DNA of 64,000 nucleotides from Saccharopolyspora elongata (GTDB taxonomy: Bacteria; Actinomycetota; Actinomycetes; Mycobacteriales; Pseudonocardiaceae). The translations under genes and the position numbers were made by a program. The notes under the pieces were generated by a model. The model was not told the DNA's origin and ran no database searches. It saw nothing but the letters and a program-made list of their open reading frames with translations. Of the stretch, positions 2,153-28,421 are shown piece after piece. The number at the start of each line of letters is the position of its first letter. The stretch's first letter is position 1. The DNA lies in NCBI RefSeq assembly GCF_004348985.1, contig NZ_SMKW01000044.1:1-64000 (forward strand), given 5' to 3'.

Positions 2153-2204
2153 CCCGATCGGGCGGCGCCGCCGGACCGCCCGACATGTCCGCACCAACAG
2201 AGGG

Positions 2205-2216
2205 GAACATCTGTTC
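2205..2216. promoter_or_regulatory. candidate LexA SOS box
   Basis: The sequence GAACATCTGTTC fits the actinobacterial LexA core GAAC-N4-GTTC. It lies 40 bases upstream of the TTG start at 2257. It is also nested within a wider inverted repeat, GAGGGGAAC (2200-2208) and GTTCCCCTC (2225-2233), which could be an alternative hairpin or operator. Confidence 0.4.
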
Positions 2217-2256
2217 TATTCTGGGTTCCCCTCGCCGCGACACACAGGAGACAGAA

Positions 2257-2733
2257 TTGACCGAAGAGCAGACGAGCACCGAGCAGACCGCGTCGGCCCA
2301 GTCCGAGCATGCCCAGCCGGAGTCGGCCCAGCCCGAATCGACCCAGTCCGAGTCGGCGCAGCCCCAGTCGGAGCAGTCTGAGTCGGCGCAGCCCGAGACC
2401 GAGTCCGCCGCCGAGGCGGCGCCGAAGAAGCCGCGGGCCCGCAAGCAGAGCACCGCCAAGAAGACCCGGACGGTCGAGCTCACGCTGACGGTCACCGGCA
2501 CCGCCGACGGCGAGTGGCAGGCCGACCTGATGCACGCGGGCAAGCGCATCGTGCAGGCCCTGCCGGTCGCGGCGGCCGCGGTGTCCAAGGCGGCCGCCGA
2601 GCTGCACCAGGACATCTCCGACACGATCGAGAGCGTGCTGAACGAGGCGCGCCAGCAGCACGAAGCGAAGCTCGCCGAACTGGAGGCCGAGGTCGAGCGG
2701 GTCCGCAAGGCCCTCGCCGAGCTCGAAGGCTGA
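2257..2733 (+). CDS. DUF6319-like small protein with ESAQP-type repeats
   Basis: The start is TTG 2257, six bases after an AGGAG ribosome-binding site; the open frame extends further upstream but has no such site. The 158-residue product has a low-complexity N-terminus (residues 5-50) of repeated E-S-A-Q-P/S units, a basic stretch PKKPRARKQSTAKKTR (about 55-70), then a conserved-looking domain beginning VELTLTVTGTADGEWQADL and a C-terminal coiled coil (EAKLAELEAEVERVRKAL). I recall this arrangement from Pseudonocardiaceae proteins named DUF6319; that is memory, not a search. No function is known. A SOS-box-like site lies upstream. Confidence 0.75.
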   Translation: MTEEQTSTEQTASAQSEHAQPESAQPESTQSESAQPQSEQSESAQPETESAAEAAPKKPRARKQSTAKKTRTVELTLTVTGTADGEWQADLMHAGKRIVQALPVAAAAVSKAAAELHQDISDTIESVLNEARQQHEAKLAELEAEVERVRKALAELEG

Positions 2734-3239
2734 CAGCCGCGAACAGCCGGGCATGCCGTGCCGGCCCCTCGACGACACGGCATGCCCGCCGCAGTCCCGA
2801 CCCGGTCGGCTCCGCCGACCGCACTACCGCGGGGCGAGCCGCGAGGCTGGGAGACTCCCAGATTCGGCGGCGACCCCGCAACTTTCGATACCGGGCGGTC
2901 GATCGAGCCCCATGCTACGCCGCACGACATGCGCTTCCCGGTCCGAGAGCCCGGCCGGCTCCCGGCGATCCGCCCGGAAAACGCGTTTGGTCGAGCCAAT
3001 TTCGGGCGGCCGATTCGAGAAACTGCGCGCGTCATTGAGGTAAACCGCGGCGTCGCGGCCGATGAATTCGGTTCCAAATGCCGGGAATTCGAACGCAGTG
3101 GCGATGACCAGCTGGTACGTCCGGACCGGAAAGGGTTGCGCCATCTCCGGGTTTTTTCCGGGTATTCGTCCCGCCGCTCCGTCCGATGGGCAAGGATAGC
3201 CGATCAGACCCAATCAGCACTGGGCCGAGGAGGCGAATC
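2734..3239. other. 506-base intergenic region
   Basis: No convincing gene. A 129-codon reverse frame (2824-3213) lacks a ribosome-binding site and recognisable features. The part near 3050-3130 is visibly less GC-rich than its surroundings and probably holds the promoter of the YbaB-EspC-WXG operon that starts at 3240. Confidence 0.5.
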
Positions 3240-3677
3240 ATGTCCGCGGATCTGGATGATCTGCAACGCAAGCTGGACGCGCTCAAGGAAGCCGGCCGCC
3301 GGGCCGAGGAACGAATGGGCGATTTCGGCCAGATACGCGAGCAGATCAGCGAGCTGCAGGTGGCCGCCACGTCCGCGGATCGCTCGGTCACCGTCACCGC
3401 AAGCCCCGGCGGCGTCACCGGCATCGAGTTCACCCAGGACGCGATGCGCCTGTCGCCCGCGCAGTTGTCGGGCACCGTCATGAGCACCTTGCAGCTCGCG
3501 GTCGCCGAGGCCGCCCGCAGGCAGGCCGAGATCGTGCAGGAGTACGTGCCGGACAGCGACGTCCTCGACCGCGTGCTGCGCACCCAGGAAGAGCTGTTCG
3601 GCGCCCAGCCCGAGCAGCACGAAGAGCCGGTCGACGACGACGAGCAGCCGGATTCCTTCCTCGACGGCAGGAGATGA
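3240..3677 (+). CDS. YbaB/EbfC-family protein, first gene of an ESX-substrate-like operon
   Basis: 145 residues from ATG 3240, preceded by CGAGGAGGCG as ribosome-binding site. An N-terminal helix (LQRKLDALKEAGRRAEERM) and a YbaB-like strand region (TVTASPGGVTGIEFT) are followed by a helix rich in A/E/R and an acidic tail. It is a diverged paralogue of the gene at 1-482. The stop overlaps the next start (ATGA at 3674-3677), so translation is probably coupled. In mycobacteria, YbaB-like proteins of this type (EspL and relatives) are made with ESX-secreted EspC-like proteins. DNA binding versus chaperone-like function cannot be decided from sequence. Confidence 0.75.
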   Translation: MSADLDDLQRKLDALKEAGRRAEERMGDFGQIREQISELQVAATSADRSVTVTASPGGVTGIEFTQDAMRLSPAQLSGTVMSTLQLAVAEAARRQAEIVQEYVPDSDVLDRVLRTQEELFGAQPEQHEEPVDDDEQPDSFLDGRR

Positions 3678-4030
3678 CGATGCCGGGGTACAAGGCACCC
3701 GCCGAAATGATCATGCAGTGCGGCGGCAACATCGGCAGGATGAACGCCGACGCGAAGGCCGTCCGGGACAAGGTCGCCGGCGCGGAGGTCCCGGAGGTCT
3801 CGTGGGGGCTGCTCGGCCTGGCCACCACCTACAGCTCCTACCGCGACCTGCTGGAGAAGTTCAAGCAGCACCTCGACGAGATGAGCCGAGGGCTGACCAA
3901 GGCGGGCGAGGACATCACCGCCTGCGGCCGTGACTACCAGGAATCCGACGAGTCGATGGCCGAGATGTTCGGCAAGATCCTCGGCGAGGTCGGCAAGGGC
4001 GGCGGCGGTGGCGGAGGCGGTTCCTGGTGA
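3674..4030 (+). CDS. EspC-like (DUF2580-type) ESX secretion-associated protein
   Basis: 118 residues, helical hairpin type, with a WG turn in VSWGLLGLATTYSSYRDLLEKF and a second long helix (EMSRGLTKAGEDITACGRDYQESDESMAEMFG) that includes the YxxxD/E-like motif YQESDE used in type VII secretion signals. It ends in an unusual run of eight glycines followed by SW. The start overlaps the upstream YbaB-like gene and the stop overlaps the next GTG, so the three genes are one unit. No ESX core genes (eccB-E, mycP) are visible in the window, so if it is secreted, the machine is encoded elsewhere. Confidence 0.7.
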   Translation: MTMPGYKAPAEMIMQCGGNIGRMNADAKAVRDKVAGAEVPEVSWGLLGLATTYSSYRDLLEKFKQHLDEMSRGLTKAGEDITACGRDYQESDESMAEMFGKILGEVGKGGGGGGGGSW

Positions 4031-5253
4031 CCACCAACGCGGAAGCGATCAGCGAGAACAGCGCGCTCAACCCGGCGGCCCCGCGCGTCGACGGGTCGGC
4101 GTTCGGGAAGCTGCCGTTCGTCAAGGACATCATCAAGGCCAGTGACGACGCCGGTAAGGGCGACATCGAGGCGCTTAAGGGCGACATCGAGAGCTACCTG
4201 TCCAGCGCGACCAGCTTCGCGCTGGACCCGATGGGCTTCCTCATCGGCACCGGCGTCGAGTTCGTGATCAACTTTGTGGCCCCGGTGCGCGACGCGATCC
4301 AGCTCGTCACCGGCGACAGCGAGGCGCTGGCCAAGAGCGCCCAGTCGTTCGCCGAGGTCCAGGACGAGATCAACAAGCTCGGCCAGAATCTGACCGACAG
4401 GCTGGACAGCGAGCTCGCGGACTGGGACGGCGAAGCCGCCGACGCGCTGCGCAAGAAGATGGCGAAGTTCATCGACGGCGTGCATGCCACCGGCGGCCAG
4501 GCGAACAACATCTCGCAGCTGCTGCAGATGAGCGGCACCATGATGGAAGCCGCCGAGGGCGTGATCAAGGGCATCCTCGCCGACTTCCTGACCTGGGCGA
4601 TCACCACCTGGATCACGGCGACGGCCTCGGCGGGCCCGACCTTCGGCGGCTCCATCGCCGCGGCCACCGCGGTGACGACGGCGGAAGCGGGCATCACCTG
4701 CGCCCGGGCCGCCCAGCAGATCCAGAAGATCACCAAGATCATCGGCCACATCATGGACGTGATCACGGCGATCAAGGCGATCCTGGACACGATCCGGATC
4801 ATCGAGAGCGTCCAGCAGATCACGGACGGGAAGCCCGGCGGGGACGGCGGCAAGAGCCTGGCGGACATGGGCAGCAAGATCCTCGGCGGAGTGACGAAGG
4901 AAACCGCGGACGAGCGCAAGGTCGTGGGCCAACTCGGCACGGGATTCCAGTCCGAAGCCGAAGACCGCGGCTACACCGTCGACGGTGATGGCGACATCGC
5001 GTCGGTCGGCGAAGACGGAACCCGCACCAAGCTCGACGAACACGGCAACCCCGTCCGCGACGAGCACGGAAACCCCGTCACATCGGAGAAGCCCACGCCG
5101 TCTTACGGCGCGAGGGACGTCGCCAAGTCCGGCTTCAACCAGGTCGCCGGCGGCCTCGGCTCCGCCGCTGACGCCCTGGAGAAGCAGGCTCAGGGAGGCG
5201 GCTTCACCGACGTACCCCCGGACGAAACGATCAGCGGCGACCTCAATTGGTGA
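4027..5253 (+). CDS. large WXG100/PPE-like protein, putative type VII secretion substrate
   Basis: 408 residues, GTG start overlapping the previous stop (GTGA). Residues about 55-90 are helical with a hydrophobic patch (DPMGFLIGTGVEFVINFVAP). A WDGEAADALRKK motif near residue 138 is the WXG-like turn of an ESX helical hairpin. Residues 180-260 are strongly hydrophobic and Ala/Ile-rich (ADFLTWAITTWITATASAG, later IIGHIMDVITAIKAIL). The C-terminal third is polar and contains a duplicated D-E-H-G-N-P-V unit. No known toxin domain is visible. It may be a pore or carrier-type effector or a structural substrate; this is inference. The operon ends at a strong hairpin at 5272-5320. Confidence 0.6.
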   Translation: MTTNAEAISENSALNPAAPRVDGSAFGKLPFVKDIIKASDDAGKGDIEALKGDIESYLSSATSFALDPMGFLIGTGVEFVINFVAPVRDAIQLVTGDSEALAKSAQSFAEVQDEINKLGQNLTDRLDSELADWDGEAADALRKKMAKFIDGVHATGGQANNISQLLQMSGTMMEAAEGVIKGILADFLTWAITTWITATASAGPTFGGSIAAATAVTTAEAGITCARAAQQIQKITKIIGHIMDVITAIKAILDTIRIIESVQQITDGKPGGDGGKSLADMGSKILGGVTKETADERKVVGQLGTGFQSEAEDRGYTVDGDGDIASVGEDGTRTKLDEHGNPVRDEHGNPVTSEKPTPSYGARDVAKSGFNQVAGGLGSAADALEKQAQGGGFTDVPPDETISGDLNW

Positions 5254-5329: not shown

Positions 5330-6103
5330 TCAGACAAAGGGAAGCTGCAGTTGCGGCAGCGGAATGCTCTGGCGGTCGGCCTCAGCAGCTGCCGGATCCT
5401 GGTACGCGGCAGGCGGAATCCAGCGCTGGATCTCCTGGGCTATTCCGAGGAGATTGTCGAGCACGACGGGATCCTCGAAGTTGCGGCCGCACCAGACGAT
5501 GATCTTGCGACCGGACAGGCGGAAGTGGACCTTGCCCAGCGTGGTGTTCGGGGCCGGACCGCGTCCCTCGTTGTACAGCCAACGCGTCCGATCCGGTGTC
5601 ACCACCGCGCGCGCGTACTCCGGCGAGGCACCGGAAACGTGGTAGATGTTCAGCGAAGCCGGCCCGACGTCGATTCCCTTGCCCTGGACGACGTTCTTGG
5701 AACGGTTGAAATCGAACAAGCTGGCAATGTCGCCAAGCTTGTCCCGCTTCTCCTCCACCACCAGTTCCGGAACCGGTGACGGCATCTCGAGGACCACCGT
5801 TCCACAGGTCACCACCTGCTTGCTCGTCTTCGACGCGCCGTTCATGTACATGCCCGCGCTCGACGAGTAGTGGGAACTGCCAGGACTGGAATTCTTCTTG
5901 CTGAAGCGGATGTGCACCGCCAGCCCGGGCATCCCCTGGTAGAAGCCCGCCATCAGCAGCGGCACGGACCTGCGCCGATAGTTGTGGAAAGGCGCGCCGG
6001 GCAACTGGTCCAGCACGTTGTCGGGCACGTTCCAGGCCATCCGCCAGCCGAGTCGCTGCGCCCAGTCCGCAACCGGGACGCCCGGCTGTCCAGGTTGGTT
6101 CAT
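5330..6103 (-). CDS. uncharacterised actinobacterial protein
   Basis: 257 residues from ATG 6103, with GGGAGGCGGG just upstream as ribosome-binding site; an ATG four codons earlier (6115) is possible. No signal peptide or membrane segment is seen. The order of features (GWRM near the N-terminus, a central VEEKRDKLGDIASLFDFNR, then ARAVVTPDRTRWLYN and a WCGR strand before IPPAAYQ) resembles a widespread uncharacterised actinobacterial family with a D-I-x-x-F-N core. The C-terminus is Pro/Leu/Gln-rich. It is convergent with the WXG-like gene across a terminator, so an immunity role is only speculation. Its upstream region contains a displaced copy of the rpoC 3' end. Confidence 0.6.
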   Translation of the reverse strand: MNQPGQPGVPVADWAQRLGWRMAWNVPDNVLDQLPGAPFHNYRRRSVPLLMAGFYQGMPGLAVHIRFSKKNSSPGSSHYSSSAGMYMNGASKTSKQVVTCGTVVLEMPSPVPELVVEEKRDKLGDIASLFDFNRSKNVVQGKGIDVGPASLNIYHVSGASPEYARAVVTPDRTRWLYNEGRGPAPNTTLGKVHFRLSGRKIIVWCGRNFEDPVVLDNLLGIAQEIQRWIPPAAYQDPAAAEADRQSIPLPQLQLPFV

Positions 6104-6160
6104 CCCGCCTCCCATCGCCGCCGCACACCGTATCTGCCGAGCCCCCGCTGGCCAACCGAC

Positions 6161-6200
6161 CAGCTGCTTCAGCGGTAGTCGTGGCCGAAGTCGTAGTCGT
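6161..6200 (-). repeat. displaced copy of the rpoC 3' end (att-like direct repeat, left)
   Basis: Positions 6162-6200 match 8314-8352 at 37 of 39 bases in the same orientation. The match spans the last codons of rpoC, its stop codon and 7 bases beyond. The left copy is detached from any RNA polymerase gene and would encode only the last few residues and the stop. Together with the right copy it brackets a 2.1 kb segment. Confidence 0.85.
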
Positions 6201-6204
6201 AGGG

Positions 6205-6528
6205 TTAGTGGTCTGCCCGGTGGTGGTGTTTCCCAGCCGGCCGGACGGCGCAAGCAGACCCGTCGGGGCAGATCGTGGGGAATGGGAATCCCATTGGTAT
6301 TTCGGGAAATTCGTGACCGGCGGCGCGGTTGTGTCCGGCGTTGCGGGATTCGGCGTTTTCGGCTTCGATGTCGGCAATGAGGCGCCAGACGGTGTAGTCG
6401 CCTTCGCCGCCTCCGGCGTGCTGGCCTGTGGCGGTGAACGCGATGGCTCGTGCGGGGATCTGGGTGGTGAGCATGGCGAGGATCAGCAGGTTGAACAGGA
6501 CGAACATGCTGAGCTGAATCCAGAACAT
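6205..6528 (-). CDS. small membrane-anchored protein of unknown function
   Basis: 107 residues from ATG 6528. The N-terminus MFWIQLSMFVLFNLLILAML is a clear single transmembrane segment or signal anchor, followed by a soluble part containing DYTVWRLIADIEAENAESR and a His-rich end. The stop lies 4 bases from the displaced rpoC-end repeat. I do not recognise a family. The coding potential of the first half (hydrophobic helix after a plausible GGAA site) is better than that of the tail, which may have been created by the rearrangement at the repeat. Confidence 0.5.
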   Translation of the reverse strand: MFWIQLSMFVLFNLLILAMLTTQIPARAIAFTATGQHAGGGEGDYTVWRLIADIEAENAESRNAGHNRAAGHEFPEIPMGFPFPTICPDGSACAVRPAGKHHHRADH

Positions 6529-6560
6529 GAGTTTGGGTTCCTTCCGTGGCTTGAGGTGCG

Positions 6561-6620
6561 CCGTTTTCGCGCGAAACCGGCGTTTCGCCTGCGTGGCGGC
6601 GCCGTTTTCGCGCGAAAACG
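6561..6620. repeat. two TTTCGCGCGAAA palindromes
   Basis: Copy 1 is at 6561-6580, centred on TTTCGCGCGAAA with one mismatched pair. Copy 2 at 6603-6620 is the perfect palindrome CGTTTTCGCGCGAAAACG. Further copies are at 20236-20253, 23257-23280 and 23302-23320, all intergenic. Confidence 0.8.
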
Positions 6621-6765
6621 CCACCTCCACCCAGACGTGTCAGGGGCGGGCGGCGAGGACGTGCCAGCAGCGCATGCACGCTCCGCAGAACGCCACCACC
6701 GGCACACCCGCAGGGGTTTTCGTTGCTGCGATTGGGAAAGCGTGGCGGCCTCCCGTGACCGGGCG

Positions 6766-6792
6766 TCAGACGTAGATCAAGTAGTCGGACAT
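6766..6792 (-). other. possible 8-codon leader ORF (MSDYLIYV)
   Basis: An ATG preceded by GGAGG (AATGGAGGCTGCTC) begins an 8-codon reading frame, MSDYLIYV. The same frame after its stop reads on through a Cys-containing stretch (GACMRCW) that has no obvious start of its own. This could be a leader peptide or chance; nothing else supports it. It lies in the 6529-7092 gap, which otherwise holds the palindromes and the regulator's operator. Confidence 0.2.
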
Positions 6793-6985
6793 GAGCAGCC
6801 TCCATTGCCGAACGTGCAGCTCTGCTTGGCCGGGTGGGCCGGTGGGTGGAGGTCGGGGAAAGGTCACCGCACCGGCCCGGCTCGAAGGCCCGCCCCGCCA
6901 TTGCTGTCCCTGCAAGACCGGCGGGACGGGCTGCGCTACCGGTTTCGAGCCCTCGCATCCCCGGCGGCACATTGATCAAGCTAGT

Positions 6986-16564: not shown

Positions 16565-16896
16565 GCGAGCACGGAGCGCGCGCGGCCCGGCACGGCGGGA
16601 AAGATCCGGCCGACGCGATCACCCGAGCACGACGACGTCCGCCGCCCGATCTCGAAGTCGCCGCCGCCGGCGCGTGCCGTCCGTGAGTAGCAATGGTCGC
16701 AGTAATGACATTTCCCGCTGCGAACCGGTACTTTCGATCAGGAGCGCTTAACGAATGGTGCGTTCGGGCACAACTGCCCAACAGCACGATCTCAGGTGAT
16801 GCACGCGGGCTATTCGGCGCTCGCGTCCGCCGGTAGCGTGATACGCCCCACCTGTTCCAGGTGCCCCGGGTGAGCAGGCCACAGGAGAACCGACCG

Positions 16897-19800
16897 ATGA
16901 CAGACGATGCAAGCCGCGCGAGCGAACGGTTCAGCGGGCTGCAGCGTTGGACAGGGGGGCCGGACCGCAGCGGTTCCAGCTCGAGCTGGTTCGCCGCCGA
17001 GCCGGAGGACGCCACGCCCCCGCCCCGGCAGGCCCCGCAACCTCCCGAGGCGCCGGCCCCCGAACCCCGGCGCAGCGCCGAGCAGCGCTACGCCGACGCC
17101 ATCGCGGCGATGAACAAGATCGTCACCACCCTGGACTTCGAGCAGCTGCCCTGGGTGACCGAGGTGTTCCGGGCGACCGCCGGAGTGCTGAACGAGAACG
17201 ACCCCGCGCGCGCGGGCGTGCTCAACAACCTGGGTAGCGCCGCGCAGCTGACGCACGTGCGCAGCGGCGCGCTGGCCGACCTGGAAGACGCGATCTCCTA
17301 CTACCGGTCGGCGCGGGACTCGGCGCACAGCAGCGACCAGGACCGCGTGCTCTACCAGTGCAACCTCGCGCTGGCACTCACCGATCTCGCGAGCAAGACC
17401 GACAGCGCCTCATCGGCGGCGGAGAGCGTGCAGGTCGCGCGGGAGACCGTCGAGCAGACGCCGCGCCGCGACCAGCGCCGCGCGATGGCGCTGATCCGGC
17501 TGGCCAACGCGTTGCGGCTGCACGCCCGGCTGGCCGACGAGCCGCGGTCCGACGACGAGTCGATCGACGTGTTCCGGGAGGCCGCCCGGATCTCGCCGGC
17601 CAACGACCCGGCCACCTCCGAGCTGCTGATCAACCTCGGCGCGGCGCTGCTGCGCCGGTTCGAGCGCGGCGGCTCGCCCGAGGACCTCGACGAGGGCATC
17701 AAGCACCTCGGGTCCGGCGCCGGCGCCCTCGCCGACGGCGAGCCGCGGCGGGCCGCGTTGTGCCACCTGGCCAAGGCGCTACGGCTGCGGTTCCAGCGCA
17801 ACGGCGATCTGACCGATCTGAACTCGGCGATCAGCGAGCTGATCGGCGTGCTCGGCATGCTGGAAAGCGGAAATCCCTTGCTGGGCACGGCGATCTGGCA
17901 CCTCGCCGCGGCGACCGTCGAGCACGTCGACGCCACCGGCGAGGCGAGCCAGCTGCGCCGCGTGCTGCGGCCGATCGCGCCTGCGGTGCGCGCGATGTCC
18001 GCCGACGACCAGAGCCGCTCCGTCGCCCTCACCGGTTACGCGACCTTGCTGCGCAGGCATTTCCTGCACGGCGGGGAGGCCAAGGTGCTGGACACCGCGG
18101 TCACCGCAGGCGAGGCCGCGGTGGAGGCGGCGAGCGCGGCGGACCGCGGCGTGATGCTGCATTCGCTGGTCACCACGTTGATCGGCCGCTTCGAGCACCA
18201 CGGGGAGGCCACCGACCTGGACCGGGCGGCCGAGATCGCGCGCGAAGCCGCGAAGCTCGACGCCGCGTCGCAGCCCGCGGCGTGGGCGCAGCTCGGCATC
18301 GTCTCGGCGCACCGGTTCCGGTTGACCGCCAAGACTCGGGACATCGAGGCCGCCATCGAGCTGCTGGACCAGGCGCTCATCGCGACGCCGGCGACCGCGC
18401 CGAACCGCGCGGGCATCGCCGTCCACCTCGGCCGCGCTCTGCGCACGCTCTACCAGCGCAGCGGGCGGAGGCGGTACTACCGGTGGGCGCGCAAGGTGCT
18501 CATGGAGGCCGCCGAGCAGTCCAACGCCCCCGCCGACCAGCGGCTCCGGGCGGCGAGCCTGTCCGGTCAGATCTGCGCGCAGGCGCACCGGTGGTCGGAG
18601 GCGCTGGAGTCGTTCGAGGTCGCGGTCGACCTGCTGCCGCTGGTCACGCGCGGCAAGCGGGTCGTCGCGTCGCCTGCCGCGCAGCAGCGGTGGGCGACGA
18701 TCGCGGCCGATGCCGCGGCGTGCGCGTTGGAGAGCGGCGCGCCCGAGCGGGCCGTGGAGCTGCTGGAGCACGGGCAGAACGCGGTCCTGGCGGACTTCCT
18801 GCCGACCGGTGGAGAGCTCGGCGCGCTGCACCGCACCCATCCGGACCTCGCGGACGAGGCGGTCCGGGTGCGGCGGCTGCTGGACCGGCCGGTGGACGAG
18901 CCGGTGCTCATCGGGTCCGACGACCGGATGCGGCTGGCGCACACCTGGGACGAGCTGCTCGCGGAGATCCGCCAGGTGCAGCCGGGCCACCTGCTGCGCA
19001 CGCCGATCGAGCAGCTGTCGGCCGCGGTGCCGGAAGGCTGCGCGGCGCTGGTCAACCTCAGCCGCTACCGGTCGGATGCGCTGGTGCTCATCGCCGGGCG
19101 AGTGCTGACCGTGCCGCTGCCGAACGCCGCGCCGGAGACCGCGGCCGACCGGGCGGGCGAGCTGCTGGCGGCCGCGCAGCAGGACGACCACGAGGCGCTG
19201 TCCGAGGCCCTCGACTGGACCTGGGACCGGATCGCGCGCCCGGTCATGGAGCGGATGGGCTACCTGCGCACGCCGGAGCCCGGCGCCCGGTGGCCGAGGA
19301 TGTGGTGGAGCGCCCTCGGCGCGATGGCGTTCCTCCCGGTGCACGCGGCGACCTCGCGGACCGGTGAGTCCACATTGGACCGCGTGGTGTCGTCGTACAC
19401 CCCGACGCTGGGCTGCCTGCTCCGGGCGACGCAGCGGCCGGTGCCGACGGGCGGCCGGGCCCTGGTGGCGGCCGGATCCGCCGAGCAGGTCGGGCGGGAA
19501 CTCCCGCCGCAGAACCAGGTCCTGGCGCAGTACTGGCCGTCGGCGGAGATCGCGTCGGTGGAGAGCACCAGCGCGACCGAGATGCTGCAGCTGCTGCCGG
19601 AACACCCGTGGTTGCACGTGTGCGAGCCGAGTTCGCAGTTCCCGGGGCAGCCGGCGGCGGCGCTGCTGCTGGACCGCGAATCACCGCACCGGCCACTGGG
19701 CGTGGTCGAACTGGGCCAGGCGCCGTTGGAGGAAGCGGAGTTCGGCTACCTCGGCCAGTGCGCGACGGCGGCCGACCCGCCGTGCGCGGCGGCGGTGTCC

Positions 19801-20034
19801 CTGCCCGGAGCGCTGGGCTTCGCGGGGTTCACGCACGTCATCGGCACCCTGTGGGAGATCGACCCGGAGAGCGCGGTGCAGGTGCACGCCGACGTCTACG
19901 CCGCGGTGTTCGGCGGCGAGGAGTTCGACACGGACCGCTCGTCCTACGCCCTGCACAACGCGGCCCGCCAGCTCCGGGCCCGCTATCCCGAGGAGCACTG
20001 CATCTGGGCGGCCCACGTCCACATCGGACCGTGA
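16897..20034 (+). CDS. TPR-repeat protein with a C-terminal CHAT (caspase-like) domain, catalytic His missing
   Basis: 1045 residues from ATG 16897, with ACAGGAGAACC as ribosome-binding site. Residues about 60-620 are helical repeats of the TPR type, with many copies of a pattern like A-x-x-L-x-x-A-I/L-x-x-x-R. The last 300 residues are a CHAT domain: an MWWSALGAMAFLPVHAA strand, then LHVCEPSSQ, later YLGQCATA, and ALGFAGFTHVIGTLWEIDPESA. In active CHAT peptidases the first motif ends C/T-H-G; here the His is Glu (codon 19624-19626), while the Cys (19759-19761) remains. TPR-CHAT proteins act in actinobacterial signalling or defence; this one may be a non-proteolytic scaffold. It stands alone, with a long upstream gap. 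Confidence 0.85.
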   Translation: MTDDASRASERFSGLQRWTGGPDRSGSSSSWFAAEPEDATPPPRQAPQPPEAPAPEPRRSAEQRYADAIAAMNKIVTTLDFEQLPWVTEVFRATAGVLNENDPARAGVLNNLGSAAQLTHVRSGALADLEDAISYYRSARDSAHSSDQDRVLYQCNLALALTDLASKTDSASSAAESVQVARETVEQTPRRDQRRAMALIRLANALRLHARLADEPRSDDESIDVFREAARISPANDPATSELLINLGAALLRRFERGGSPEDLDEGIKHLGSGAGALADGEPRRAALCHLAKALRLRFQRNGDLTDLNSAISELIGVLGMLESGNPLLGTAIWHLAAATVEHVDATGEASQLRRVLRPIAPAVRAMSADDQSRSVALTGYATLLRRHFLHGGEAKVLDTAVTAGEAAVEAASAADRGVMLHSLVTTLIGRFEHHGEATDLDRAAEIAREAAKLDAASQPAAWAQLGIVSAHRFRLTAKTRDIEAAIELLDQALIATPATAPNRAGIAVHLGRALRTLYQRSGRRRYYRWARKVLMEAAEQSNAPADQRLRAASLSGQICAQAHRWSEALESFEVAVDLLPLVTRGKRVVASPAAQQRWATIAADAAACALESGAPERAVELLEHGQNAVLADFLPTGGELGALHRTHPDLADEAVRVRRLLDRPVDEPVLIGSDDRMRLAHTWDELLAEIRQVQPGHLLRTPIEQLSAAVPEGCAALVNLSRYRSDALVLIAGRVLTVPLPNAAPETAADRAGELLAAAQQDDHEALSEALDWTWDRIARPVMERMGYLRTPEPGARWPRMWWSALGAMAFLPVHAATSRTGESTLDRVVSSYTPTLGCLLRATQRPVPTGGRALVAAGSAEQVGRELPPQNQVLAQYWPSAEIASVESTSATEMLQLLPEHPWLHVCEPSSQFPGQPAAALLLDRESPHRPLGVVELGQAPLEEAEFGYLGQCATAADPPCAAAVSLPGALGFAGFTHVIGTLWEIDPESAVQVHADVYAAVFGGEEFDTDRSSYALHNAARQLRARYPEEHCIWAAHVHIGP

Positions 20035-20356: not shown

Positions 20357-22336
20357 TCAGGGGCGGGGTTTCAGCCGACGGAGGGTGTAGCCGTCGCCGG
20401 TCGGGTCCAGGGCCGCGGTGGCTCGCTTGAACAGGTACTCGGCTCGTTCGTAGGACAGGCGGCTGCGGCCCGTCTCCGGGCACAGGTCGCCGTCCTGGGG
20501 CGGCCTGGACGGCCCGGGTCTGCGATCGGTCAGGAACAGCGGGCCCCGGGTGCGGCCCGCCACCAGCTCGGGGAGCAGCGCGGCCGTGCCGGATCGCCAG
20601 CTCACCCAGGCGCCGGCCACCCGGGCGCGGCGGTCGTCCAGGTCCAGGTCCTCGACGTTCAGGGACAGGACCGCCGTCACCGCGGCCCCGGATTCGTGCA
20701 GCAGCCGCCACAAGGTGCGTTCCCGCAGCGGGATCCCGGGGCGGTTCCAGATCTCGTCGAGCTGCGCGGGGTCGATCGGCAGCGCCGGGGAGCGGGTTTC
20801 GGCGCGGCGGTCCAGGCCCGCCGCCAGATCGTCCAGGCCCGCCCAGGCGGCGAACGACCGGATCGCCGCGCGGTGCCGGTTCCACGTCTTCGCCGCCACC
20901 GAGCCCCATGCCGTCTCGAACACCCTCGCCACTTGCTCGGCGGTCATGGCGGCCAGCGGCCGATCCCCCAGGGCAAGGCGCAGCCGTCGCAGGGTCTGCC
21001 CGTAGGAGCGGATCGTCGCGGCGTTCAGCTCGTCGCGTGCCAGGAACTCCTCGACCGCCGCCCCTAGCGTCGGACCGGAATCGCCGCCGGCGAGCTCTCC
21101 CGCGCGGCGGAGCAGGAAAGCGCGTTCTGCGCTGTTCTGGGTGAGCGCCGCGGCCCGCTCGAACTCGAACTTCGCCTCTCCGCCGCGCCCGAGCCGCGCC
21201 AGGAGGTCGCCCCGGACGCTGGGCAGCAGGTGGTAGTTCTGCAGAACCGGGTCGGCGCCCAACGAATCGACCAGCGCGAGCCCGGCGTCCGGCCCGCGCG
21301 CCATACCGACCGCCACAGCCTTGTTGAGCTGCACGATCGGCGTCGGCAACAGCCGGGACAACGCTTCGTAGAGCGCCGCGATCTGCGCCCAGTCGGTGTC
21401 CTCGGCGGTCCGCGCCCGCGCGTGGCACACGGCGATCGCGGCCTGCAGCACGTACGGGCCGGGGGCGCCGCCGATCTCCTTCGCTCGCAGCAGTGCGGCG
21501 AAGCCTCGGCGGATGAGCAGCTGATCCCAGCGCCCCCGGTTCTGCTCGTGCAGCTGGACGGGCTCCCCCGACGGGCCGGTGCGCGCGGCCGATCGCGACT
21601 CCTGGATCTCCATCAGCGCGACCAGCCCGTGCACCTCGGCCTCGTGCGGCGCCAGCTCGGCGAGCAACCGCCCCAGCCGCAGGGCCTCCTGGCAAAGTCC
21701 GGGGCGCAGCAGGTCGTCGCCGGCGGTAGCCGAGTACCCCTCGTTGAAGATCAGGTAGACGACGCCGAGCACCGACGAGACGCGATCGGCCAGCTCCGGG
21801 CCGTCCGGGAGGTCGAACGGCACCTGCCCCCGGGCCAAGGTCCGCTTCGCCGCGGCGATCCGCCGAGCGATCTGCGGTTCGCTGACGAGGAACGCCCGGG
21901 CGATCTCCGCGGCCGTCAGGCCACCGAGCAGCCGGAGGGTCAGCGCGACCCGCTCCCGCATCGGAAGCACCGGGTGGCAGGAGATGAACATCAGCCGCAG
22001 CACGTCGTCCTGTTCGAGGTCCTGCTGCCGTTCCTGCTCGTGCGCCAGCTGCTCGTGCTTCTCCTCCAGGCGGCGGGACCGCCGGATGTGGTCGATGGCG
22101 CGGCGCTTGGCGATCGCCATCAGCCAGGCGCCCGGGTTGTCCGGGATGCCCGCGGGCCATTGCTCCAGCGCGGCCACGAGCGCGTCCTGGGCCAGCTCCT
22201 CGGCCAGGCCGACGTCGTGCACCAGCCGCGTGAGCCCGGCGATGATCCGGGCCGATTCGAGCTTCCAGATCGCGTCGACGGTGCGCCGCACGGCGGGTGC
22301 GCCGCCCCGGTCGGGGCGGCGCGGACCGGGTGTCAC
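20357..22336 (-). CDS. ECF sigma factor (ECF42/DUF6596 type) fused to a truncated tyrosine-recombinase-like domain
   Basis: 659 residues from GTG 22336, which overlaps the stop of the upstream DGPF gene (GTGA). Residues 10-100 are sigma region 2 (ELAQDALVAALEQWP, GAWLMAIAKRRAIDHIRR), 115-170 region 4 (LRLLGGLTAAEIARAFLV) and 175-415 the DUF6596/TPR-like extension of ECF42 factors (LIFNEGYSATAG, LLPTPIVQLNKAVAVGMARG). From about 422 a core-binding domain begins (TLGAAVEEFLARDELNAATI), then KTWNRHRAAIRSFAAW and a catalytic-like domain (RERTLWRLLHESG, LSLNVEDLDLDDRRARV, LLPELVAGRTRGPLFL). The first catalytic Arg position is not Arg, and the protein ends at YTLRRLKPRP where HxLRH and the Tyr would follow. 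The recombinase part is therefore probably inactive. Confidence 0.85.
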   Translation of the reverse strand: MTPGPRRPDRGGAPAVRRTVDAIWKLESARIIAGLTRLVHDVGLAEELAQDALVAALEQWPAGIPDNPGAWLMAIAKRRAIDHIRRSRRLEEKHEQLAHEQERQQDLEQDDVLRLMFISCHPVLPMRERVALTLRLLGGLTAAEIARAFLVSEPQIARRIAAAKRTLARGQVPFDLPDGPELADRVSSVLGVVYLIFNEGYSATAGDDLLRPGLCQEALRLGRLLAELAPHEAEVHGLVALMEIQESRSAARTGPSGEPVQLHEQNRGRWDQLLIRRGFAALLRAKEIGGAPGPYVLQAAIAVCHARARTAEDTDWAQIAALYEALSRLLPTPIVQLNKAVAVGMARGPDAGLALVDSLGADPVLQNYHLLPSVRGDLLARLGRGGEAKFEFERAAALTQNSAERAFLLRRAGELAGGDSGPTLGAAVEEFLARDELNAATIRSYGQTLRRLRLALGDRPLAAMTAEQVARVFETAWGSVAAKTWNRHRAAIRSFAAWAGLDDLAAGLDRRAETRSPALPIDPAQLDEIWNRPGIPLRERTLWRLLHESGAAVTAVLSLNVEDLDLDDRRARVAGAWVSWRSGTAALLPELVAGRTRGPLFLTDRRPGPSRPPQDGDLCPETGRSRLSYERAEYLFKRATAALDPTGDGYTLRRLKPRP

Positions 22337-22662
22337 GGGCCGAAGACCTGCTGGACCACGCTCTCGCCGTCACCGACGATCTTGCGGAACCGGCGGGCCA
22401 GCTCGATCGCCTCCTCCTTGGACCGGACCTCGACCAGCGCGAAGCCCGCCACCGACTCCTTGGCCTCGGCGAACGGCCCGTCCGTCACGGTGATCTCGCC
22501 GTCCGCGGAGGTCACCCGGACGCCGCCGGGTTCGAGTCCGCCGGTGGCCAGCAGGACCCCGGCCGCGGTCAGCTCCTCGACGAACTTGCCCATCTCGACG
22601 TACAGGCTCTCGTCGGGAGCGGCATCGGAGTCGGAGGCCTTGGTCATCATCAGATAGCGCAC
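22333..22662 (-). CDS. YCII-related DGPF-domain protein
   Basis: 109 residues from GTG 22662, after AAGGGGA. It carries the family signature TDGPFAEAKESVAGFALVEV and an N-terminal MRYLMMTKASD. These DGPF proteins are the standard partners of ECF42 sigma factors and are usually encoded directly upstream, as here, with overlapping stop and start. In Streptomyces the sigma factor is reported to control DGPF genes. The enzymatic role of DGPF proteins is unresolved; the ferredoxin-like fold resembles small-molecule-handling YCII proteins. Confidence 0.92.
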   Translation of the reverse strand: MRYLMMTKASDSDAAPDESLYVEMGKFVEELTAAGVLLATGGLEPGGVRVTSADGEITVTDGPFAEAKESVAGFALVEVRSKEEAIELARRFRKIVGDGESVVQQVFGP

Positions 22663-22806
22663 GGCGCTGTCCCCTTCCTTCGCTGAGCTGCCTTCCGCAT
22701 CAGCGTCGGACGAGCTTATGCGACGGGGAACGGGCGCATTCCCTGTCGCATCGCCGGTTCGACGTGTTGGCGAGAACCCGAGCACCGCAACAGGAAGGAC
22801 GAAGCC

Positions 22807-23175
22807 ATGGCCAAGTTCGCCACCGTGCAGGAGTACACCGCCTCGCTCCCCGAGGCCCAGCGCGCGATCGCCGACGAGCTGCTTCCGCTCATCGACGAGG
22901 CGCTGCCCGGCGCGGGAGCGGTCTGGCACGGCCACCCGGTGTGGAGGCTCGGCCCGGCGCCCGGCAAGTCGCCGGTCTGCTTCATCAAGGCCTTCTCCGC
23001 CCACGTGTCCTTCGGCTTCTGGCGCGGCCAGGAGATCACCGACGCGTCCGGCCGCCTCGAACCCGGCTCACGCGCGATGGCGAGCGTCAAGCTCCGCACC
23101 CCGTCCGACATCGACGCCGGGTTGTTCACCGACTGGCTGCGCGCGACCCGCGACCTGGAGACCGCAACCGCCTGA
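22807..23175 (+). CDS. DUF1801 (YdhG/YjbR-like) small protein
   Basis: 122 residues from ATG 22807, after GGAAGGACG. The pattern fits DUF1801: ATVQEYTASLPEAQRAIADE, an early LIDEALPGAGAVWHGHPVW strand-turn, PVCFIKAFSAHVSFGFW, and a C-terminal SDIDAGLFTDWLRAT helix. DUF1801 proteins are small phosphoribosyl-like or nucleotide-binding folds without a settled function. It is divergent from the DGPF gene and convergent with the Mce-associated gene, from which a strong hairpin separates it. Confidence 0.85.
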   Translation: MAKFATVQEYTASLPEAQRAIADELLPLIDEALPGAGAVWHGHPVWRLGPAPGKSPVCFIKAFSAHVSFGFWRGQEITDASGRLEPGSRAMASVKLRTPSDIDAGLFTDWLRATRDLETATA

Positions 23176-24877: not shown

Positions 24878-25981
24878 CTACTGTCCCGGTGCATTCTGCG
24901 CGCCGCGGACCGACGTGTCACTGCCCTGGGGCTCCGCGCAGTGCGCGTTGGGGTTCAGCGGCATCTCGCGGAAGTCGTCGCCGGCGCGGCGCTCGGTCGA
25001 CTCGTAGCCCTTGGTGCAGGGCAGCGGGTCGAACACGTTGAGCACCAGGCCGAAGTGCGCGGTGCCGTCGCCGGGCACCACCGTGTTGCTGGCGGTGACG
25101 ATCGCCGGGTACAGCGTCATGATCTGCTCGATGCCGTCGACGCGTTCGGCCATGACCCGCGATGTGGTCGTCAGGTTCGCCAGCAGCGGTCCGAGCTGCT
25201 GGTTCTCCTGCAGGAGCGCGCTGACCTGGCGGGCCGCCGGTGGGGCGCGCTCGATCACCGCGCGCAGGTCGCCGTCGGAGTTCTTCACCGACTCCGACAG
25301 CAGCCGCAGGTCTTCGCCGAACGACCTGATCGCCGAGCCCTGCTCGTTCTGGGTGGCCAGGACTGCCTTGCCGTCCTGGAGCAGCTGCACCGTCTGCGGC
25401 AGGTGCTCCTGCGCGGCGGCGGTGAACTCGCGGCTGGTGTCCAGGATGGTCTGCAGGTGGCCGCCGTTGTCGCGGAACGCCGTGCCGAGCTCGCTGACCA
25501 CGGTGCGCAGCGACTCCTCCGGCACCGAGTTCGCGAACGCGTCCAGGTTCGTCATCAGGCTTTCCACCGGCAGCGGCGTGGTCGCGGATTCCTGCGCGAT
25601 CACCGAACCGTCAGCCAGGAACGGGCCGTCGTCGCTCTTGGGCCGCAGATCGACGTACTGCTCACCGACCGCGGACCGGTTGGTCACCACCGCCTGCACG
25701 TCGCGCGGGATCCGCGGCGCGCTGGACTCGATGTCCAGCGGCACCTCCACGCCGGTGCCGGTCAGCTTCAGGTCGCCGACCCGGCCGACCGGCACCCCGC
25801 GGTAGGTGACCTCGGCGTTGTTGAAGACGCCGCCGGTGTCGGCGAGTTGCAGCGTCACCACGTAGCCGCGCGGGCCGAACAGCCGGTCCAGGCCCGCGTA
25901 GCGGGCTCCGGCGTAGCTGACGCCGACCAGGGCGATCGCGACGAACGCGATGATCTGCAGGCGCACTCGACGGGTGAGCAT
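24878..25981 (-). CDS. mceF: MCE-family protein MceF
   Basis: 367 residues. The N-terminal anchor (LQIIAFVAIALVGVSYAGA) is followed by the MlaD/MCE domain (residues 38-120: TLQLADTGGVFNNAEVTYRG, VPVGRVGDLKLTG, SAVGEQYVDLRP) and a long helical tail that would extend the lipid channel. The C-terminus holds the Mce-typical PLPCTKGYESTERR segment. The start ATG 25981 overlaps the mceE stop. It is the sixth MCE subunit of the hexameric substrate channel of an ABC lipid importer. Confidence 0.93.
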   Translation of the reverse strand: MLTRRVRLQIIAFVAIALVGVSYAGARYAGLDRLFGPRGYVVTLQLADTGGVFNNAEVTYRGVPVGRVGDLKLTGTGVEVPLDIESSAPRIPRDVQAVVTNRSAVGEQYVDLRPKSDDGPFLADGSVIAQESATTPLPVESLMTNLDAFANSVPEESLRTVVSELGTAFRDNGGHLQTILDTSREFTAAAQEHLPQTVQLLQDGKAVLATQNEQGSAIRSFGEDLRLLSESVKNSDGDLRAVIERAPPAARQVSALLQENQQLGPLLANLTTTSRVMAERVDGIEQIMTLYPAIVTASNTVVPGDGTAHFGLVLNVFDPLPCTKGYESTERRAGDDFREMPLNPNAHCAEPQGSDTSVRGAQNAPGQ

Positions 25982-27141
25982 CAGCGGCCACCTCCCAACA
26001 ACGAGCCCAGCAGGCCACCGGATTCCCGCTCCGGCTCGGCCGGCGGTTGCGCGGGCTGCTCCGGCGGCGCCTGCGGCGTCAGCGGCAGCGGGATGGACTT
26101 CAGGGCGTCCGGCAGCGGGATCAGCGGCTGCCGGCTGCGACCGAGGTTCTCGAGCACGTGGGTGAGGTTCAGGTCCACGTTGGCGTAGAGGTTGGTGAAG
26201 TCGCTGTTGCCGATGCCGTCGACCGCGTTGTCCGGGAACGGGAACGAGACGAGCACCTCCAGCGACTTCGGCAGGCTGTCACCCGCCGCGGCCAGCTGGT
26301 TCAGGGCCGGCGCGAGCTGGTTGAGGTTGTGCACCAGGTCGTCGCGGGACCTGTTGACCACGTCCGTGCCGACGCCGGAGAGCTGGTCGAGCGACTGCAG
26401 CATGGTGACCAGCTGGGTGCGCTGCTCGTTGAGCACCCGCAGCCCGGGTTCCAGGTCGCGCAGCGCGGTGTCGATGCTCCCGCGCTGCTCGTTGAGCCGG
26501 GCGCTGAGCCGGTTGATGCTGTCCAGTGCCCGCGTGATGTCGTCGCGCTGCGCGTCCAGCCCGGCGACCAGTTCGTCCAAATTGGACAACAGGCTGCGGA
26601 CGTCGGACTCGCGGCCCTCCAGCGCGGCGTTGAGCTCCTTGGTGATGTTCTGCAGCTGCGCCACGCCACCGCCGTTGAGCAGCATGGACAGCGCGCCGAG
26701 CACCTCTTCCACCTCGGGGTTGCGGCCGGTGCGGTCGAGGCCGATCAGGGCTCCGTCAGCGAGGCGGCCGACGTCGGACTGCCCCTCCGGCGGGCCGGCG
26801 AGCTCGACGTACTTCTCGCCGAGCAGGCTGGACTGCCGCAGCCGGGCGGTCGCGTTGGCCGGCAGCTTGACGTCGCCGTTGACCTGCACGGTCACCTCGG
26901 CCTGCCAGGAGTCGGGGGCGAGACCGATGGTCGACACCCGGCCGACCGGCACGTCGTTGACCCGCACCCCGGCGTTGGGCCCCAGGTCCAGCACGTCGGC
27001 GAAGCGCACCTTGACCTCGTAGGGGTCGCTGCCGAGGTCGGCGCCGCCGGGCAGCGGCATGTCGTAGACGCCCTGCGAACTGCACCCGCCGAGCACGACC
27101 AGCGCCAGCACGGCGGCCCCAACCTTCGGACCACATCGCAA
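25981..27141 (-). CDS. mceE: MCE-family lipoprotein MceE
   Basis: 386 residues from TTG 27141; an in-frame TTG at 27174 would add 11 residues but begins inside the palindrome. The short start MRCGPKVGAAVLALVVLGGC gives a textbook lipobox (VLGGC, Cys20), which identifies the lipoprotein subunit, Mce position E. The MCE domain follows (YEVKVRFADVLDLGPNAGV, VPVGRVSTIGLAPDSWQAEV, LLGEKYVEL), then helices and a Pro/Glu-rich tail. A large palindrome (27170-27215) separates it from mceD. Confidence 0.9.
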   Translation of the reverse strand: MRCGPKVGAAVLALVVLGGCSSQGVYDMPLPGGADLGSDPYEVKVRFADVLDLGPNAGVRVNDVPVGRVSTIGLAPDSWQAEVTVQVNGDVKLPANATARLRQSSLLGEKYVELAGPPEGQSDVGRLADGALIGLDRTGRNPEVEEVLGALSMLLNGGGVAQLQNITKELNAALEGRESDVRSLLSNLDELVAGLDAQRDDITRALDSINRLSARLNEQRGSIDTALRDLEPGLRVLNEQRTQLVTMLQSLDQLSGVGTDVVNRSRDDLVHNLNQLAPALNQLAAAGDSLPKSLEVLVSFPFPDNAVDGIGNSDFTNLYANVDLNLTHVLENLGRSRQPLIPLPDALKSIPLPLTPQAPPEQPAQPPAEPERESGGLLGSLLGGGR

Positions 27142-27169
27142 CGACGACCGTGCCCGCCCCGAGCGGGTC

Positions 27170-27215
27170 CGCAATTTCCATTGAAATCGAAGGTTCGATT
27201 TCAATGGAAATTGCG
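27170..27215. repeat. 46-base perfect palindrome between mceD and mceE
   Basis: Two perfect 22-base arms (27170-27191 and 27194-27215) centred on GG, with core ATTTCCATTGAAAT and its complement. It is AT-rich within GC-rich DNA and lies inside the mce operon. Related copies are at 50259-50306 and 50378-50399. Confidence 0.9.
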
Positions 27216-27230
27216 TCAGAAACAGTCCCT

Positions 27231-28421
27231 TCACCGGGTGCCTCCCGCGGTTTGGGTGCCGCTCGCGTCGGAGAGCGGAAGCGGAAGCGGTGGGAGCTTG
27301 CCGTTCTGGATGGCGTTGAGGGTCTCCGCCGGGGTCGGCAGCTTCACCACGCCGTCGAGGATCGGCTGCAGCGACTTGCACGCGTCGCTGACGTCCTTCG
27401 GCAGGTCCGCCGGGCTGTGCTGCTGCAGCATCTTGCACACCGCCACCACCGGCGGCTGGTTCAGCTCGTTGAAGTTCGCGCGGACGTCCAGCGTTCCCGC
27501 CGCGCCGTTGTAGGCGTTGTTGAGGTTGCTCAGCGCCAGCGGCGCGTTGTTCAGCGACTCGCTGAGCGCTTCCTTCTGCTCCACCAGCACGGTCGCCACC
27601 GCGTTCAACTGGTCGACGTTGGACTTCACCAGGCCCCGGTTGTCCCGCACGAAGGACTCGACCTTGCCCAGCGCCACGGCCAGCTCCGCCAGCGCCGCGC
27701 TCATGTCCTCGCGCTCGCCGGCCAGCAGCGAGCTGACCTGCTGCATCTGCGTGTTGAACCGGCGCACCTGGTCGTCGTTCTCGGCCAGCATCGTGGTGAA
27801 CCGCTGCACGTTGTCGACGGTGGCGAACAGCTGATCGCTGTTGCCGGACAACGTGGTGCCGACCTCGCCGAGGTTGCGGATGGTCTCCGACAGCGCCTTC
27901 CCGTTGCCGTCGAGGTTCGCCGCGCTGGTGTTGAGCAGGTCGGTCAGCGCGCCGTCGGCGTTGGCGCCGTCGGGCCCCAGCGCGGTCGTGATGTCGTTGA
28001 GGCTGCGGTAGATCTGGTCCAGCTCCACCGGAGTCGCGGTGCGCTCCTTCGGGATCACCGCACCGTCGGCCAGCTCCGGCCCGCCCCGGTAGACGGGGGC
28101 GAGCTGCACGTAGCGGTCGCTGACCACGCTCGGCGCGACCGCCACCGCGCCCGCGTCGGCGGGCACCTTCACGTCGCGGTCCACGCTCATCACGACGCGC
28201 ACCACCTGGCCCTGCGGCACGACCTCGTCGACGGTGCCCACCGGGACCCCGAGGATCCGCACGTCACCTCCCGGGTAGATGCCGACGGCGGCGTGGAAGT
28301 ACGCGGTGACCTTCCGCTCGGCGGCGCCGAAGAACAGCCACCACACCCCGGTGGTCACGGCGAGCACGACCACCACGGCGATCGACAGCGTCCTGGTCAG
28401 CGACGGGCGTGCGCTGGTCAT
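27231..28421 (-). CDS. mceD: MCE-family protein MceD
   Basis: 396 residues from ATG 28421, overlapping the mceC stop. Signal anchor (TLSIAVVVVLAVTTGVWWLFF), MCE domain (VTAYFHAAVGIYPGGDVRIL, VPVGTVDEVVPQGQVVRVVM, VVSDRYVQLAPVYRG) and a long alpha-helical channel segment with many LN/SN heptads. The C-terminus is Pro/Leu-rich (KLPPLPLPLSD), typical of position D. One subunit of the Mce lipid channel. Confidence 0.93.
   Translation of the reverse strand: MTSARPSLTRTLSIAVVVVLAVTTGVWWLFFGAAERKVTAYFHAAVGIYPGGDVRILGVPVGTVDEVVPQGQVVRVVMSVDRDVKVPADAGAVAVAPSVVSDRYVQLAPVYRGGPELADGAVIPKERTATPVELDQIYRSLNDITTALGPDGANADGALTDLLNTSAANLDGNGKALSETIRNLGEVGTTLSGNSDQLFATVDNVQRFTTMLAENDDQVRRFNTQMQQVSSLLAGEREDMSAALAELAVALGKVESFVRDNRGLVKSNVDQLNAVATVLVEQKEALSESLNNAPLALSNLNNAYNGAAGTLDVRANFNELNQPPVVAVCKMLQQHSPADLPKDVSDACKSLQPILDGVVKLPTPAETLNAIQNGKLPPLPLPLSDASGTQTAGGTR

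Follow-up and report, generated by a model that had tools for sequence, protein, structure and literature searches.

Promoter reading by sigma factors is generally ascribed to their regions 2 and 4, and the ECF42 group of extracytoplasmic function (ECF) sigma factors has a promoter consensus of TGTCGA at -35 and a CGA-type -10 element, upstream of a DGPF gene. The C-terminal extension of ECF42 proteins is described as rich in tetratricopeptide repeats (TPR) (PMC8999054). For ECF41 and other ECF groups, ligand-sensing or protein-binding extensions have been described, of SnoaL_2, TPR and metal-responsive types (PMC8103513, PMC8999054). MrpR (YopR), the master repressor of the SPbeta prophage, has a recombinase fold that has lost catalysis and works as a DNA-binding regulator, and its authors suggested that the recruitment of recombinases as regulators may be more widespread (PMC10516654). 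Here we analysed a stretch of 64,000 nucleotides from Saccharopolyspora elongata (positions 1 to 64,000 of contig NZ_SMKW01000044.1; hereafter the window), in which an ECF42-type sigma factor is fused in frame to a degenerate tyrosine-recombinase domain. With a probability of about 0.62, the domesticated recombinase domain binds a half-site and replaces -35 recognition, and its former recombination site has become a two-way promoter.

The fusion gene occupies 20357..22336 on the minus strand. From a GTG start at 22336, a frame of 659 codons runs down to 20357 without an internal stop. In Pfam its protein matches, from N- to C-terminus, Sigma70_r2 (residues 33-89), Sigma70_r4_2 (116-167), DUF6596 (185-285) and Phage_int_SAM_1 (435-499, E 3.6e-7); Phage_integrase is a sub-threshold match. 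Sigma regions 2 and 4 (residues 13-169, 21830..22300, on the minus strand like the other parts of the gene) are present and region 3 is absent by Pfam. The recognition helix of region 4 spans residues 153-169 in the structure model (21830-21880). DUF6596 and a helical, TPR-like ECF42 extension follow at residues 180-415 (21092..21799; Pfam and structure model). Residues 422-659 (20360..21073), assigned from Pfam, alignment and structure matches, contain a core-binding domain and the N-terminal half of a catalytic domain, which stops at the position of the HxxR motif. All NCBIfam recombinase matches to the last 240 residues are sub-threshold, and a direct sequence search of the domain against solved structures returned one chance-level match (E 0.75). 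The fold of the domain is predicted with a pLDDT (predicted local distance difference test) of 92, and its best structure matches include recombinase-DNA complexes. Upstream, a YCII/DGPF gene (22333..22662, minus strand, Pfam) overlaps the fusion start by four nucleotides (GTGA), and 74 of the 75 fusion loci checked have this neighbour. An earlier note on this DNA, made from the letters alone, had described a 659-codon frame with no stop at the joint, a core-binding plus partial catalytic recombinase domain at residues 422-659, a recombinase fold to be expected from structure prediction, and an intact DGPF partner with overlapping start; the open frame, Pfam and the structure matches bear out each of these points. 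A standard ECF42 C-terminal extension at residues 422-659 is ruled out, since the non-fused ECF42 proteins examined stop shortly past the position of residue 415.

The fusion recurs in related genomes, as the note had proposed to check. In a comparison set of 61 genomes (the window's and 60 relatives), it is present at full length in at least four: the window's, one of the same genus (G008, 95%), one of another genus of the family (G030, 74%) and one of another family of the order (G048, 67%). Recurrence across these genomes rules out that the joint was created by a frameshift or a misassembly. Among the other same-genus genomes, one of 21 (G001-G021) has the fusion among the matches listed, suggesting that the distribution is patchy. 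A scan of a genome collection with the C-terminal domain yielded 154 loci encoding a relative. Within the best 80 of these 154, the sigma part and the domain share one open frame in 75 and the recombinase stands alone in two (L103 and L108). The last three are broken fusions (3/78): in L052 and L082 a frame break puts the preceding sigma part in another frame than the domain, and L063 has lost the sigma part, so that of the ECF42 extension just the last stretch is left. They reflect either draft-assembly error or decay. In a class-wide sample of 394 genomes at least 48 match the domain profile, and 15 of the 30 loci listed are fusions, the window's included. With six duplicates removed, we counted 90 distinct fusions (the three broken ones among them) and 17 stand-alone proteins; the 76 fusions with a named genus fall into 28 genera of six actinobacterial families. 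The C-terminal domain sequence is identical in G008 and Saccharopolyspora shandongensis (L039). The linear Streptomyces plasmid NZ_CP108089.1 (L254) carries the whole unit at 1289-4672, with a divergent DUF998 gene, YciI and the fusion, the last annotated merely as 'sigma-70 family RNA polymerase sigma factor'; such carriage is a possible vehicle for the patchy distribution. Relatives of L103 also occur in 199 plasmid records. In the literature searched (titles and abstract starts), no fusion between a recombinase and an ECF sigma factor was met, though an earlier mention in the work on ECF42 of S. venezuelae or in the 2021 ECF classification cannot be excluded; the terms 'integrase' and 'recombinase' led to no mention of such a fusion in the texts checked.

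Phylogenetic trees, all of them quick searches, point to a single origin. The tree built from the C-terminal domain has 110 rows, L063, L142, L143 and L147 having been left out beforehand; in it, 89 fusions form one clade with a Shimodaira-Hasegawa-like approximate likelihood ratio (SH-aLRT) support of 96, and their nearest relatives are the stand-alone recombinases L103, L149 and L108. Trees of the sigma part (109 and 84 rows) also group the fusions in one clade (98), whose sister is formed by non-fused ECF42s of family f31 (86). The sigma tree divides the fusions into an early group of 13 (Microbispora, L105, L117, L102, L106, L116 and kin) and the rest, termed late, to which the window belongs; in the domain tree the early fusions are a grade below the late clade. 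Catalytic residues have been lost on a large scale. The first catalytic arginine (Arg I) is kept in 4/90 fusions vs 16/17 stand-alone proteins, the lysine in 1/90 vs 14/17, the histidine of HxxR in 15/90 vs 15/17 and the tyrosine in 2/90 vs 13/17; seven fusions, all early, have phenylalanine in place of the tyrosine. At least 33 residues follow HxxR in 10 of the 90 fusions, again all early, and the others stop 0-15 residues past it, save L063 with its frame-broken tail. The window's protein has the core-binding/catalytic fold of an active recombinase and lacks its active site: Arg I, the lysine, the histidine of HxxR, the second histidine and the tyrosine are all missing. The first arginine is thus replaced and the tyrosine absent, as the earlier note had stated; its remark that the protein ends before HxxR needs correction, because in the alignment with L103, an intact relative, GYTLRRLKPRP of the window's protein stands opposite GFTLHQLRHAR, and His has become Arg and Arg has become Lys at the HxxR position itself. 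Judged by the trees, the fusions descend from one origin; judged by these residues, the active site of the window's protein is catalytically dead.

Some fusions could still recombine DNA, alone or with an intact partner recombinase. A few early ones retain much of the active site (L105 keeps Arg, HxxR, His and Tyr), and genome G298 has both a fusion and an intact relative. We consider this very unlikely, given that Arg I is gone in 86 of 90 fusions and Tyr in 88, and that the window genome (10.3 Mb) has one palindrome of the kind described below and no second copy of the domain (E up to 1e-3). A frozen accident, in the form of a functionless pseudogene or a read-through joint, is the least likely of the explanations weighed here. 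It would fit the truncated catalytic domain and the three broken loci. The ratio of nonsynonymous to synonymous substitution rates (dN/dS) of the C-terminal domain is 0.14-0.54 and below 1 in 20/20 pairs, which share members; by this measure the recombinase-derived domain is under purifying selection. Together with the 28 named genera, these ratios rule out a pseudogene and speak against the earlier suggestion of a frozen trace of an integration or deletion, and most fusions have reached a similar end point.

Between the fusion operon, upstream of its YCII gene, and the divergent gene, outside the fusion gene itself, stands a lox-like palindrome, ATGTGACAGGGAA-N8-TTCCCTGTCACAT (22718..22751, no strand). 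It is a 34-bp inverted repeat of the form 13-8-13, with arms at 22718-22730 and 22739-22751 and a spacer at 22731-22738, and fits an inverted-repeat core site with a 5-8-bp spacer. The loxP site likewise has 34 bp, with two 13-bp inverted arms and an 8-bp spacer. The palindrome was found through a promoter pattern of shorter spacing; an earlier pattern, in which 16-23 nt separate TGTC from CGNC, yielded little. Exact TTCCCYGTCRCAT arms occur in the window genome only twice, both at 22718-22751, and with two mismatches allowed there are 47 arm matches vs 16 for a reversed control. In 70 of 73 upstream regions the arm matrix scores above the best of 365 single-base shuffles; 33 of the 73 loci trained the matrix, so their match is built in, and among the remaining regions some have just a single good arm. 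In 47/64 late regions, including 14 that did not contribute to the matrix, both arms reach a score of at least 9. No early region has an arm pair at that score, and the half-sites are direct repeats in 8/9 of them. Two further TGTCGCAT-N-TCGAC matches lie in the window genome (G000:C191:282151-282171, L196; G000:C249:35282-35303, L198), possibly additional promoters of the fusion sigma factor.

The distribution of the arms follows the recombinase. At a score of at least 15 across whole loci, arms are found in 78/89 fusion loci and 6/20 stand-alone loci. None occur in 46 non-fused ECF42 loci (193,701 bases, up to 1.5 kb either side of the match) or in shuffled window sequence totalling 640 kb. 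Of the 11 fusion loci without arms, nine end before the region, and all nine genomes have exact arms beside the fusion. Arms are present near all three closest stand-alone relatives: L149 and L108 have 7-bp spacers, and L103 has three arms, two of them a pair with a 7-bp spacer and an imperfect second arm. Fourteen of the 20 stand-alone loci lack them, and more distant relatives have variants, such as ATGTGACAGAGAA in L135. Exact arms in 27 genomes number 26, of which 22 lie beside a fusion, two beside L149 and two elsewhere; 15 of 17 fusion genomes have one, and G048 and G237 have variant arms. The two elsewhere, with no fusion or known relative nearby, are G004:C8:37782-37794 and G364:C104:344-356. 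Since the arms accompany the fusions and their nearest stand-alone recombinases and are absent from the non-fused ECF42 loci, the site is tied to the recombinase and not to ECF42. The same pattern makes it unlikely that the palindrome is the site of some other, unrelated regulator with its gene close by, an idea that could draw on the DUF998 or DUF1801 genes sharing the intergenic region in 56/64 late loci. Several observations on the stand-alone recombinases can be added. L149 (G298:C64) has a 33-bp palindrome at 3112-3144 upstream of its frame (3948-4976), and a downstream frame (5563-6864) is reverse-transcriptase-like by reading, in a genome that also has a fusion. L134, L135, L137 and other related actinobacterial recombinases have variant arms near the gene, so that the site may co-vary with the recombinase family.

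The position of the arms relates them to the promoters of the locus. In the window they face outward, as wherever both are present, and each is followed by a CGAC. For the YCII-sigma operon, a -10-like CGACG lies at 22704..22708 on the minus strand, its CGAC 22 nt past the start of the left arm. For the divergent gene, a -10-like TCGAC lies at 22759..22763 on the plus strand, its CGAC 21 nt past the start of the right arm (both identified by sequence pattern). The divergent gene encodes a DUF1801 protein (22807..23175, plus strand, Pfam); most other late fusion loci have DUF998 at this place. Counted by motif, with two checked by Pfam, the divergent genes of 64 late loci are DUF998 in 41, DUF1801 in eight, both in seven and other genes in eight. 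Before the DGPF gene, most non-fused relatives have a promoter of the type TGTCGA-N17-CGAC. Within 260 bp upstream, GTCGA-N17-CGAY is present in 15/22 non-fused loci (those with a DGPF gene found, of 34; none was found in 12), in 9/9 early fusions and in 1/64 late ones (L086), with 0.2 in shuffled sequence; the window lacks the TGTCGA/CGA-type promoter. A half-site followed by N7-9 and CGAC shows the reverse pattern, with none in non-fused loci, none in early fusions and 58/64 in late ones. With a second pattern, the half-site is 21 or 22 nt from CGAC in 55 of the 56 matching late regions (of 64), a spacing that suggests promoter recognition instead of repression. The early fusions have half-sites further upstream of an intact canonical promoter. 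The window's fusion is a variant of ECF42-type sigma factors that lacks one tested ECF42 feature, the TGTCGA promoter.

The change of promoter coincides with a change in sigma region 4. T142, Q158 and R162 are invariant in 34 non-fused proteins (of the 46 non-fused ECF42 loci) and 13 early fusions (47/47); in 74 late fusions R162 is kept in three, T142 in seven and Q158 in 34. Position 155 is Thr in 33 of the 34 non-fused proteins, Ala or Thr in early fusions and dispersed in late ones. Helical spacing places positions 155, 158 and 162 on the same face of the modelled helix, the kind of face that contacts the -35 element in ECF sigma factors. Six positions go from near-invariant to more than 1 bit of entropy: 142, 157, 158 and 162 inside the helix-turn-helix (139-166), and 30 and 175 outside. 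This amounts to 4/16 vs 2/146 near-invariant positions (Fisher p 9e-4; Mann-Whitney p 2e-5 for the entropy change), with p-values that treat sites as independent when the change sits on one branch. The earlier view that the sigma part looks functional must be qualified for the region-4 helix-turn-helix, the part expected to read -35, from which invariant residues have been lost in the window's group. In another reading, region 4 itself may have changed its specificity (re-specialisation), with the half-site as its new -35 element, leaving the recombinase domain another job. Region 4 and the promoter did change on the same branch; the new residues should then be fixed, yet position 162 has at least 10 different residues across the 74 late fusions while the arm is nearly constant, and these arms also lie beside recombinases that stand alone, without a sigma part. 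We therefore regard re-specialisation as improbable. Living genera hold a series of states: non-fused proteins with the canonical promoter, early fusions with the canonical promoter, intact region 4 and half-sites upstream, and late fusions with a half-site promoter and decayed region 4.

These observations are most simply combined into a mechanism in which we infer binding of the palindrome by the domain, replacement of the -35 contacts and activation as the outcome. In one event, the gene of a stand-alone recombinase would have joined an ECF42 operon, together with the palindromic core site of that recombinase. Afterwards the catalytic residues would have decayed and most lineages would have lost the second half of the catalytic domain, keeping the part that grips DNA. 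In the late group, the C-terminal domain would sit on one palindrome arm (TTCCCTGTCACAT) at the place of the old -35 element, and sigma region 2 would melt the -10-like TCGAC 21-22 nt downstream of the arm. Region 4 would no longer read DNA bases, and the tethered recombinase domain would supply the upstream contact that formerly came from TGTCGA and region 4. Because the arms point outward, one palindrome could serve two divergent promoters, that of YCII and the sigma factor itself and that of DUF998 or DUF1801. Since the exact site is nearly unique per genome, the regulon would be mainly the fusion's own locus. That the sigma factor swapped its own -35 recognition for the recombinase domain, with the lox-like site now a bidirectional promoter and the intermediates still alive, has in our judgment a somewhat better than even chance. 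The earlier proposal that the recombinase fold acts as a module for DNA binding or regulation finds good support in single-origin recurrence, the dead active site, the conserved sequence and a palindrome common to the nearest stand-alone recombinases, and the earlier interpretation as a whole is partly supported.

A number of points weigh against this mechanism. The late switch lies on one branch, so the changed promoter, the decay of region 4 and the placement of the arm count as a single correlated event and not as independent replicates. In the model region 4 remains folded, and Q158 persists in 34 of 74 late fusions, suggesting that region 4 may retain some role. L102, L106 and L116 are early fusions whose domain is already truncated, yet they keep the canonical promoter; early fusions with that promoter and half-sites upstream imply that the first role of the domain was something else. 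A second arm at score 9 is missing in 17/64 late regions, and L057 (no DGPF gene upstream) and L063 lack any arm. The dN/dS of the C-terminal domain exceeds that of the sigma part in 17/20 pairs. With a near-unique site, the sigma factor would have hardly any regulon, which is unusual. Overlap between operator and promoter is also the classic arrangement of repressor sites. The main rival is a brake, which we hold to be possible and clearly less probable than activation: a fusion dimer on the palindrome would cover both divergent promoters and repress them until a signal arrives, perhaps via YCII or the DUF6596/TPR part. The fusion would then be a self-repressing sigma factor, like the MrpR-type repressors of recombinase fold, with the -10 element read by another sigma factor or by the fusion itself. 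By itself, a brake gives no account of why invariant region-4 residues were lost only in the group in which an arm took the place of TGTCGA, and it leaves the tight spacing from arm to -10 unexplained.

Elsewhere in the window, a large gene with a C-terminal CHAT domain (Pfam; 16861-20034, plus strand) is convergent with the fusion gene, and genes at 24878-27438 on the minus strand resemble, by reading only, an Mce (lipid-uptake) cluster.

If the -35 half of a promoter can be taken over by a DNA-binding domain of foreign origin, promoter specificity is more modular than assumed, and the whole transition series (canonical, intermediate and switched) would be open to study in living genera. The locus would also represent a further route from tyrosine recombinase to transcription regulator, a possibility already raised for MrpR (PMC10516654); here both the protein and its recombination site were apparently domesticated. 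A private palindromic promoter, near-unique per genome, could serve as an orthogonal bidirectional expression part.

The fusion resembles the ECF42 factors of Streptomyces venezuelae (Sven_0747) and Pseudomonas putida (ECF-10) in its regions 2 and 4, its TPR-rich extension (here DUF6596) and its YCII neighbour (PMC8999054). It differs from them by the added recombinase-derived domain of ~240 residues and, in the late group, by a half-site in place of TGTCGA and a region 4 without its invariant residues. With ECF41 and other extended groups it shares the principle of a regulatory domain appended to an ECF sigma factor (PMC8103513, PMC8999054); in the available portions of these accounts, a DNA-binding extension with its own operator is not mentioned. 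Among recombinases, the stand-alone L103 and L108 have domains 55 and 58% identical to that of the window, and L149 was found by the same profile; in contrast to the fusion, L103 and L149 have a full catalytic domain with all motifs (L108 lacks Arg I), and no sigma factor is linked to them in the frames read. The Cre/loxP, XerH/difH and lambda Int core sites are alike in fold, by structure matches, and in the 34-bp site with 13-bp inverted arms and an 8-bp spacer, whereas here the catalytic residues are lost, the window genome has a single site and that site is an apparent promoter element. Comparable regulators are MrpR and SroF of phage phi3T (9rd5), the latter likened to the fusion's domain by structure match alone: as in these regulators, a dead recombinase fold is paired with a conserved site in promoter regions, which the domain would bind. 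MrpR is a stand-alone phage repressor (PMC10516654), whereas here the fold is truncated and fused to a sigma factor, and its site overlaps that sigma factor's own promoters.
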